The notes under the pieces are model-generated. The model saw only the letters and a program-made list of their open reading frames with translations. It was not told where the DNA came from and did not search any database. Below, piece after piece: positions 61,390-64,000 of a DNA stretch of 64,000 nt (the stretch's first letter is position 1; every line of letters begins with the position of its first letter). Made by a program: the position numbers and the translations under genes. The DNA comes from Kosakonia sp. BYX6 (GTDB taxonomy: Bacteria > Pseudomonadota > Gammaproteobacteria > Enterobacterales > Enterobacteriaceae): positions 3,010,406 through 3,074,405 of the forward strand of contig NZ_CP151800.1 in the NCBI RefSeq assembly GCF_038449125.1, in the 5' to 3' direction.

Positions 61390-61611
<222 letters not shown>

Positions 61612-61645
61612 GATCTTCCGCCAGCACATTTAGTGCACTTATTTT

Positions 61646-61670
61646 AAAGGCCGGGTAATCCCGGCCTTTT
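61646..61670 (+). terminator. Terminator of infA
   Basis: AAAGGCCGGG-TAATC-CCGGCCTTTT type hairpin with T tract, 34 bases after the infA stop. Confidence 0.92.
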
Positions 61671-61990
61671 GCATTTCTGACGCCTGGGTAAACGTTCGCT
61701 TCAAATAGCTAATGCGGGTATGCTCTTAAACGAGCTGCTTTCAAACTTTTCTATTTTCTCAAAAATGAACATTTATCATTGATTGGCAAACTAAAAAGAA
61801 ATTCTGAAAACGCTGCCTGTCCGGCAGTGAACTGGACGAAAACCATATCATCTTGTTGTTTTTAAAAAAAGTTATTCGACTTTTAGCGCGCAGACCCTTT
61901 TTTTTGCCATTTTAAAAAACCACAAAAAAATCAATAGATTAAGAGCAACCCCAAAAAAAGGGTTTTATATGAGGAAGGATGGAGAGTTTG

Positions 61991-62191
61991 ATGGCGTCTG
62001 TCATATCGCGACGCAAGGCGTGAAACCGCCGACTGAATCCCCAATGCAAAAACATCGGGCACCAAACTTTGGCGTGGCAAAAAAAGAAATTCAAAACAGG
62101 GGATAACGAACAAACTGATAGTGATATTTCACTTCAGCATACCGGATATAACAACCCGTTAAATTCGGTCTCCCCTGAGAAAAGAGCAACT
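61991..62191 (+). pseudogene. Possible decayed reading frame in the infA-clpA gap
   Basis: An ATG at 61991 follows GGAGAG by four bases and reads MASVISRRKA, then TGA at 62021. The same frame stays open for another 132 codons, beginning NRRLNPQCKNIGHQTLAWQ and rich in basic residues. The later part runs antisense to the small secreted-protein gene, so only the first ~60 codons look protein-like. This could be a gene broken by one stop, or a chance frame. No product is recognised. Confidence 0.25.
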
Positions 62192-62197
62192 CAACGA

Positions 62198-62386
62198 TTA
62201 GTTATAGTTGCAACCACCGCGCCCCCGGCAAGCCATCCATTCGGATGTACCGACATCCGGCCCGGAGGCGGGATCGTAACGACAGATAGGCCACCATCGG
62301 CTCTGCTCATTACACACTCCTGCAAGCGCGTCTACGGGAAGAATAATGATAAAACTCAAAAGGATAGGTTTAAGCAGTGTATTCAT
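62198..62386 (-). CDS. Small predicted secreted protein with four cysteines
   Basis: A 62-residue protein not recognised. The start MNTLLKPILLSFIIILPVDA has a strong ribosome site, GGAGG seven bases upstream. Residues 1-22 look like a Sec signal peptide cleaved after VDALA. The mature ~40 residues are GVCNEQSRWWPICR at the start and CRGRGGCNYN at the end, with cysteines at 25, 35, 53 and 59 that could form two disulphides. Aromatic and glycine content is high. Possible roles are a periplasmic or secreted small protein or an antimicrobial-like peptide; nothing in the sequence decides. It sits where serW would be, suggesting acquired DNA. No immunity or transport gene is nearby. Confidence 0.6.
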   Translation of the reverse strand: MNTLLKPILLSFIIILPVDALAGVCNEQSRWWPICRYDPASGPDVGTSEWMACRGRGGCNYN

Positions 62387-62596
62387 AGGTTGTCCTCCAA
62401 ATTGACAATACTCCTTTGATGCCGCGAACAATCACTAAAACACATAATCATTGCACGGTGACTTAACCTATAAAAATAGTTGCTCTAACACAATGGCTTT
62501 GTTGTTTTTGTGTTAACAGAATTCATGTCATGCCAAGCTTACTTTGAACAGCTACGTTGCCAATCATCATGCCCGAATGCGGATCGCAGGCATAAA

Positions 62597-62624
62597 AAAA
62601 CCGGGTTCATAAGAACCCGGTTTT
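62597..62624 (-). terminator. Terminator of clpA
   Basis: AAAACCGGGTTC-ATAA-GAACCCGGTTTT perfect hairpin with T tracts on both sides, just beyond the clpA stop. Confidence 0.92.
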
Positions 62625-62642
62625 ATCACTCCACAAATCAGG

Positions 62643-64000
62643 TTAATGCGCTGCTTCCGGTTTGTGCTTCTGCGCACTCTGGAAACCATACTCCAGCTCA
62701 TTTTTCTCTCTATTCAGTGTCACAGTGACCTGCCCACCATCAACCAGCGAACCAAACAACAGTTCGTTGGCCAGCGGTTTTTTCAGGTTATCCTGAATAA
62801 CACGCGCCATCGGGCGAGCGCCCATCGCACGGTCATAGCCTTTCTCGGCCAGCCAATCACGCGCTTCCTGGCTCACTTCAAGCGACACGCCTTTCTGATC
62901 CAACTGCACCTGGAGTTCGACGATAAATTTGTCGACCACCTGGTGGATCACATCCGTAGACAAGTGATCGAACCAGATAATGTTGTCCAGACGGTTGCGG
63001 AACTCCGGCGTGAAGATCTTTTTGATCTCTTCCATCGCATCAGTGCTGTTATCCTGGTGAATCAGGCCGATGGATTTACGCTCGGTTTCACGCACCCCGG
63101 CGTTAGTGGTCATCACCAGCACCACGTTGCGGAAATCCGCTTTGCGCCCGTTGTTATCGGTCAGCGTGCCGTTATCCATTACCTGTAACAGCAGGTTAAA
63201 GACATCCGGGTGCGCTTTTTCGATCTCATCAAGCAGCAGAACCGCGTGCGGATGTTTGATCACCGCGTCGGTCAGCAGGCCGCCCTGATCAAAGCCGACA
63301 TATCCCGGAGGCGCACCAATCAAACGGCTCACGGTGTGACGCTCCATATATTCGGACATATCGAAACGCAGCAGCTCAATGCCCAACGCTTTCGACAGCT
63401 GAACCGTCACCTCGGTTTTACCCACGCCGGTTGGACCAGCGAACAGGAAAGAACCGACCGGTTTATGGTCCTGCCCAAGCCCTGCTCGGCTCATTTTGAT
63501 GGCTTCGGTTAACGCCTCAATGGCTTTATCCTGACCAAACACCAGCATTTTCAGGCGGTCGCCGAGGTTTTTGAGCGTGTCGCGATCGCTTTGCGAAACA
63601 CTCTTCTCTGGAATACGCGCGATACGAGCGACAACCGATTCGATATCCGCCACGTTGACGGTTTTCTTACGTTTGCTCACCGGCATCAAACGCGCCCGCG
63701 CGCCCGCTTCGTCGATAACATCGATCGCTTTATCCGGCAGATGGCGGTCGTTGATATATTTCACCGCCAGCTCAACTGCCGCACGCACCGCTTTCGCTGT
63801 GTAACGCACATCGTGGTGCGCTTCATATTTCGGCTTCAGCCCATTGATAATCTGTACCGTTTCCTCAACGGACGGCTCAGTGATATCAATTTTCTGGAAG
63901 CGACGCGCCAGCGCGCGATCCTTTTCGAAGATGTTGCTGAATTCCTGGTAAGTCGTGGAACCCATCACGCGAATTTTCCCGCTGGAAAGTAGCGGTTTGA
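62643..64000 (-). CDS. clpA: ATP-dependent Clp protease ATP-binding subunit ClpA, C-terminal part (cut by window edge)
   Basis: The frame ends at 62643 and stays open to the right edge, giving about 452 codons of a protein that is 758 residues in E. coli. ClpA unfolds substrates, including N-end-rule proteins brought by ClpS, and feeds them to ClpP. Visible here are the end of the first AAA+ domain (GSTTYQEFSNIFEKDRALAR), and the complete second one with Walker A GPTGVGKTEVTVQLS, Walker B VLLLDEIEKAHPDV and sensor-2 GYDRAMGARPMARV. The C-terminus is YGFQSAQKHKPEAAH. The N-terminal ClpS-binding domain lies outside the window. Confidence 0.98.
   Translation of the reverse strand, partial: KPLLSSGKIRVMGSTTYQEFSNIFEKDRALARRFQKIDITEPSVEETVQIINGLKPKYEAHHDVRYTAKAVRAAVELAVKYINDRHLPDKAIDVIDEAGARARLMPVSKRKKTVNVADIESVVARIARIPEKSVSQSDRDTLKNLGDRLKMLVFGQDKAIEALTEAIKMSRAGLGQDHKPVGSFLFAGPTGVGKTEVTVQLSKALGIELLRFDMSEYMERHTVSRLIGAPPGYVGFDQGGLLTDAVIKHPHAVLLLDEIEKAHPDVFNLLLQVMDNGTLTDNNGRKADFRNVVLVMTTNAGVRETERKSIGLIHQDNSTDAMEEIKKIFTPEFRNRLDNIIWFDHLSTDVIHQVVDKFIVELQVQLDQKGVSLEVSQEARDWLAEKGYDRAMGARPMARVIQDNLKKPLANELLFGSLVDGGQVTVTLNREKNELEYGFQSAQKHKPEAAH

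Follow-up and report, generated by a model that had tools for sequence, protein, structure and literature searches.

Closest described systems and the Kosakonia locus

A published paper (PMC12736100) locates serW and a type I-F CRISPR system of E. coli between clpA and infA. An E. coli record carries, between infA and clpA, a tRNA-Ser and at least three perfect type I-F repeats. The window, by which we mean the whole 64,000-nucleotide stretch of Kosakonia sp. BYX6 DNA analysed here, has the same gene neighbourhood, and its clpA-infA gap also holds a relic of an I-F-like repeat but, unlike in E. coli, no tRNA was found in it. At the DNA level, the gap gave no match to E. coli genomes at E 1e-5, and it contains no complete cas genes because no frame of more than 116 residues lies wholly inside it. 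Among described protein families, DUF3012 (PF11216) consists of small gammaproteobacterial proteins that have a short VGS-x-x-W-C-like stretch and an N-terminal export signal in common with the family encoded in this gap. The features of the window are as follows.

61393..61611, plus strand: infA (IF-1), left border of the gap
61805..61832, minus strand: degenerate type I-F CRISPR-like repeat, single (a relic); a neighbour in the gap, not part of the gene
62198..62386, minus strand: gene for a 62-residue precursor (translation, orthologs, purifying selection)
62198..62320, minus strand: part coding for the 40-residue putative mature protein with four Cys, plus the stop codon (sequence and alignment)
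62321..62386, minus strand: part coding for the putative signal peptide, residues 1-22 (sequence; predicted cleavage after ALA)
62394..62398, minus strand: ribosome binding site GGAGG, seven bases 5' of the ATG
62643..64000, minus strand: clpA, right border of the gap, running out of the window (name taken from the annotated E. coli neighbourhood)

Reading frame and selection

The frame at 62198-62386 on the minus strand is open without an internal stop, and its translation is MNTLLKPILLSFIIILPVDALAGVCNEQSRWWPICRYDPASGPDVGTSEWMACRGRGGCNYN. The strong ribosome site pointed out in the initial annotation was found at 62394-62398, seven bases before the ATG, and the signal-peptide pattern, four cysteines, paired tryptophans and glycine-rich end that it listed are all present in the translation. 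Lys 6 precedes a hydrophobic stretch at residues 8-18 and the tripeptide ALA at 20-22; the cysteines stand at positions 25, 35, 53 and 59, WW at 31-32, and the C-terminal end reads RGRGGC. The alternative in-frame start, a TTG at 62431, is less likely because the ribosome site belongs to the ATG. GGAG was found upstream near the start in all 13 loci compared, taking the Arsenophonus ATG to be that at L014:3887. Neither a sigma-70-like site nor a terminator-like site was found on the gene's strand within 61500-62800.

Orthologs in Kosakonia were 57-62% identical to the window protein, and those of G013 (62%), G002 (57%) and Kosakonia cowanii (62%) lie at the same site, in the clpA-infA gap. Among 15 genomes of the genus, including that of the window, the search matched G000, G013 (E 2.1e-25) and G002 (E 4.6e-23) strongly and six others weakly (E 0.003-0.006), four of which were discarded on inspection; the other six showed no match. 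BLAST with the G013 protein returned the window protein at E 2.0e-25, and the family profile, of which the window protein is itself a part, matched it at E 1.8e-29.

The gene is under purifying selection. The dN/dS ratio (Nei-Gojobori) was 0.03-0.31 in 26 of 27 pairs, with the remaining pair saturated; it was 0.13-0.31 in five of six Kosakonia pairs (the sixth being the saturated one), 0.03-0.26 in all 15 Yersinia pairs and 0.11-0.20 in all six Symbiopectobacterium-type pairs. Differences at codon positions 1/2/3 numbered 16/11/40 between the window and G013 (p 2e-5), 3/2/22 in one Yersinia pair (p 7e-7) and 15/13/22 in one Symbiopectobacterium pair (p 0.26, not significant). The DNA of the window was 70-72% identical to that of the three Kosakonia orthologs in the mature part, against 49-51% in the first 23 codons and 40-47% in the 200 bases upstream, and the contrast among the three other orthologs themselves was weak (ORF 76-80% versus upstream 71-78%).

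A chance reading frame in an intergenic gap would be short and would have no promoter-like site on its strand, as is the case here, and the one non-significant codon-position test is in line with it. We nevertheless regard it as highly improbable, because the protein is conserved in four genera, dN/dS is well below 1 in every unsaturated pair and the codon-position pattern was significant in two of the three pairs tested. A 62-codon frame by itself proves nothing; the same-site orthologs together with low dN/dS raise this one above a chance frame, and its reading as a real gene is well supported by these comparisons. The possibility raised in the initial annotation, an unconserved frame with substitutions placed at random among codon positions, was not borne out by the same tests.

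Anatomy of the protein family

The alignment of 14 rows contains nine invariant columns. The consensus core is DPATGPDxGTxEWxxCx5C, reading DPATGPDVGTxEWxxCQARGGC in the 14-row alignment, and the window protein has the signal-peptide pattern, the core motif and the C-x5-C of the family. Departures from the core were seen in L040, which is without DPA, and in L081 (Yersinia), which has three cysteines and an altered core. The C-x5-C pair is retained in 16 of 16 mature sequences, whose cysteines number four in 11, three in one and two in the four of Symbiopectobacterium type. Since the first two cysteines are absent together, as they are in five Symbiopectobacterium-type alignment rows, and the last two are always kept, the alignment suggests disulphide pairs C25-C35 and C53-C59.

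Position -1 of the putative cleavage site, read by eye, is Ala in 12 of 14 rows, Ser in L022 and Val in L040, and position -3 is Ala in five rows, Val in four, Gly in three and Pro in two; the Pro at -3 in L040 and L021 is a poor fit for signal peptidase I at the aligned place. The residue before the first cysteine is V, I, T, E or P in eight rows, which does not correspond to a lipobox, and the remaining six of the 14 rows have no first cysteine. AlphaFold2, run with 10 rows, produced no confident fold (pLDDT 58.9, pTM 0.30), and Foldseek returned 0 matches against the PDB from this low-confidence model.

Size, cysteines, a glycine-rich end and a patchy distribution are traits that a secreted bacteriocin-like or other antagonistic peptide would also have. 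Such a role is quite unlikely here, as no immunity, modification or export gene was seen by eye to recur alongside the gene and the 16 mature parts are not cationic, with computed charges at pH 7 of +0.8 to -8.1.

No convincing match for the family was obtained in the protein libraries or the PDB; the best hit of the PDB profile search, a dUTPase at E 0.034, was not convincing. The initial annotation had likewise recognised no family, and the proteins appear to constitute a new family of a known kind, matching none in the libraries searched. The PtrA N-terminal model NF041599 (NCBIfam) weakly matched three of 14 members (best E 0.012), a match likely caused by the shared signal peptide.

The likeness to DUF3012 was examined at several levels. 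The DUF3012 profile matched the Arsenophonus relative over 8 of 32 profile positions at E 0.18, and one of 14 members at E 0.069. The score of P0002, 12.4 bits across 8 positions, falls short of the curated 25-bit cut-off, and no match to DUF3012 was found in P0001 or seven other tested proteins. Profile-profile comparison gave a probability of 43% over 10 columns and an E of 0.00024, a value that applies to a comparison with this single family; in the alignment used, the L114 row is misframed, probably owing to a nearby contig end, and amounts to noise, and the L120 and L127 rows represent two repeats within a single protein. By eye, an L-x-A/G-C ahead of the motif and a DYAKHCVF-like C-terminus were seen in the DUF3012 proteins (17 readable of 18 matches), whereas the 14 rows of the present family have neither. 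Kinship with DUF3012 was not accepted; the two families have just the 10-column motif in common, and the VGS-x-x-W-C-like stretch is probably a shared helix-start motif.

The Arsenophonus relative has its first two cysteines at different places, and its VGSPEWC is echoed inside the protein by VGSDEWKRC, perhaps as an internal repeat. Its gene is annotated at L014 3821-4078, and no GGAG was found at the annotated start 3821; because AAGGAG precedes the ATG at L014:3887, the annotated start is probably 22 residues too early. The expectation that genes of this kind are missed by annotation fails for this one relative, which is annotated as a hypothetical protein.

Distribution and neighbourhoods of relatives

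The window protein had been called an orphan, but it has relatives in four genera, those outside Kosakonia being more distant. With the best 16 candidates per genome scored, so that weak members could be missed, the profile search of the enterobacterial family found the gene in at least 10 of 392 genomes and at least three of 154 genera, the order scan matched at least 11 of 394 genomes at E 0.01, three of them strongly, and the phylum scan at least seven of 398, one of them strongly (the window's own). The order and phylum scans contained no further convincing member among the matches inspected. Scanning public genome contigs yielded eight loci, one of them that of K. cowanii at the clpA-infA site, and a relative was located on four plasmid records of Arsenophonus nasoniae. 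Presence is patchy: three of 15 genomes of the window's genus and eight of 25 in Yersinia (genus g41) have the gene, as do all five genomes of Symbiopectobacterium (genus g23). We assigned g41 to Yersinia because G054 and G189 have proteins of this family identical to those in the named Yersinia records L034 and L035, and g23 to Symbiopectobacterium because the proteins found in G329, G385 and G263 are identical to those in L036, L037 and L038. Record L039, titled Serratia marcescens, has the protein of G036 (g23) and the gene order of Symbiopectobacterium, and its title is probably wrong.

Several candidates were discarded. The weak order and phylum matches L045, L047, L048, L053, L057 and L059 were judged on inspection to be due to chance, and the weak matches L008-L011 and L025-L032 (E 0.0004-0.01) have no core motif on either strand. 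Two of four Rhizobium plasmid matches (E 0.2-0.4), L043 and L044, fall inside long LysR-like frames, which we take, by eye, to be LysR-type regulators. In the open-access literature, no paper with the string DPATGPD and none on this family was found. The carriers presumably live in association with plants, insects and animals, with the Arsenophonus source taken from its record; because presence is patchy, this host association is a correlation over few lineages.

Compared by eye, no neighbour gene is common to different genera, and the core motif recurs at differing loci in the four genera. All five Symbiopectobacterium genomes retain the gene even though a frame next to it differs in length, with 281 residues in L038 and L039, 247 in L036 and 190 in L037. 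In one record of the Arsenophonus relative, the next genes match EspA and a translocon protein of SPI-2 type (T3SS).

A periplasmic modulator of a chromosomal envelope protein, of the small connector type and with no outward target, would be consistent with the signal-peptide pattern, the missing lipobox, the near-neutral to acidic mature part, the varied neighbours and the strong constraint. Patchy presence among close relatives would be unusual for a core envelope regulator, and we consider this explanation unlikely.

Phage-related features occur near some copies. At the Yersinia loci L077, L041 and L035, the gene has integrase genes or fragments at distances of approximately 1.0, 1.1 and 2.1 kb, respectively; L041 and L042 are stretches of contigs from a viral collection, and a frame beside the gene in L077 has a 30-residue match to a terminase small subunit. 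L035 also encodes Abi_alpha (abortive infection) at 76-879, adjoining a phage integrase and about 3 kb from the Yersinia relative. The integrase genes and Abi_alpha lend weight to a prophage-borne and perhaps phage-excluding role. All these features, together with the Xre/RES pair that other genomes of the window's genus carry in the clpA-infA gap, would suit a prophage-type conversion protein that is exported, protects the lysogen at the envelope (e.g., by superinfection exclusion), is spread by prophages and is left at their edges. However, two Kosakonia-type queries and one Yersinia-type query found no match among 50,697 phage records, PHROGs gave no significant match and PADLOC none, and by eye no phage gene was recognised beside the gene in Kosakonia or Symbiopectobacterium, nor an integrase in the window or at the Symbiopectobacterium loci. 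We consider a conversion protein rather improbable.

The clpA-infA gap as a cargo site

In the genus, the clpA-infA gap is a cargo site that, depending on the genome, holds this gene, Xre/RES pairs, a thiolase cluster, CRISPR repeats or next to nothing. In the 12 genomes measured, infA and clpA are from 143 nt (G014) to 8987 nt (G003) apart, with 1032 nt in the window's genome. The relic repeat of the window matches the array repeat of L088 at 22 of 28 bases (best of 500 base-shuffles, 18), and Rfam CRISPR-DR4 matched at 61801-61832 with E 0.021, under the gathering score. The 93 bases around it at 61812-61904 are also present in G005, and G001 has 53 of them. Seven perfect I-F repeats with 60-base spacing were found in G003 (L088), about 0.25-1.1 kb from the infA start, and degraded I-F repeats occur singly in the window and G001 and as two in G006 (25 and 21 of 28 bases). 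Since E. coli is known to have a CRISPR site between clpA and infA, the repeat in the window's gap is in keeping with a remnant of that site.

Xre/RES-like frame pairs are located in the gaps of six genomes and, by eye, also in G010 and G008. The pair at L082 424-1373 encodes an Xre/MbcA/ParS-type antitoxin and a RES-domain toxin-like protein (Pfam, run on this pair only), and similar frames were seen in L083, L084 and L086-L088. The same gap in L083 has a Protoglobin-GGDEF (DosC-like) diguanylate cyclase gene at 1396-2799, and that of G003 has a cluster with a thiolase gene at L088 2249-7848 (Pfam on the thiolase only), with similar frames in G006 (L085).

The initial annotation had spoken of a serW gap, a description that does not apply in this genus. 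No tRNA was found in the window's gap, within 1.5 kb of infA in the 15 genomes (less in G005, where the contig ends) or in 12 longer stretches beyond infA. Sequences identical to E. coli serW lie elsewhere in 13 of 15 genomes (87 of 88 bases in G004); G007 has an 80% match only, and G014 an 80% match plus 34-base pieces. Two identical copies stand within 600 bases of each other in G000 (C1:2904840-2905400), approximately 166 kb from infA. Paired copies are also less than 1 kb apart in G002, G003 and G013 and about 59-88 kb apart in G006, G009, G011 and G008, where islands may have been inserted between them. Acquisition at a tRNA was rejected for this gap, as no tRNA was found there.

In a tree of aat-infA DNA (1.6 kb, root uncertain, E. 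coli joining next to G004), G014, with its nearly empty gap, falls together with the carriers G000, G002, G013 and K. cowanii. A single gain and a single loss would suffice to account for this grouping. The tree places K. cowanii among the genomes of the window's genus, in keeping with Kosakonia as that genus. If acquired, the gene would have arrived before the split of the four related species that share it at this site. The acquisition suggested in the initial annotation is plausible, since gap content varies between related genomes.

Proposed role and implications

The reading we favour, with a probability of roughly 45%, is an accessory mini-protein that is exported, braced by disulphides and encoded by a gene that moves as cargo on its own. 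The 62-residue precursor would enter the Sec pathway, signal peptidase I would cleave it behind Ala-22, and the remaining 40 residues would fold in the periplasm with two disulphides, most likely the two pairs suggested by the alignment. It would act as an accessory fitness factor in the periplasm or outside the cell, with its conserved DPAxGPDxGTxEWxxC face contacting a protein partner, and its gene would travel alone, as cargo of variable sites in the chromosome and of the edges of prophages. That the gene is transcribed and that its product is exported, cleaved and linked by disulphides in these pairs is predicted from sequence; which partner it binds and what benefit it brings, perhaps to carriers living with a plant, insect or animal host, is a guess.

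For the family as a whole, we tentatively put forward, as possible though doubtful, that its members are exported disulphide mini-proteins which prophages and hot spots have carried among plant-, insect- and animal-associated enterobacteria. They may act on the host or as an envelope barrier to phage, and the second disulphide would be optional. The clear signature makes the family searchable, annotatable and testable, and since all five Symbiopectobacterium genomes keep the gene, a role in host association is a testable idea.
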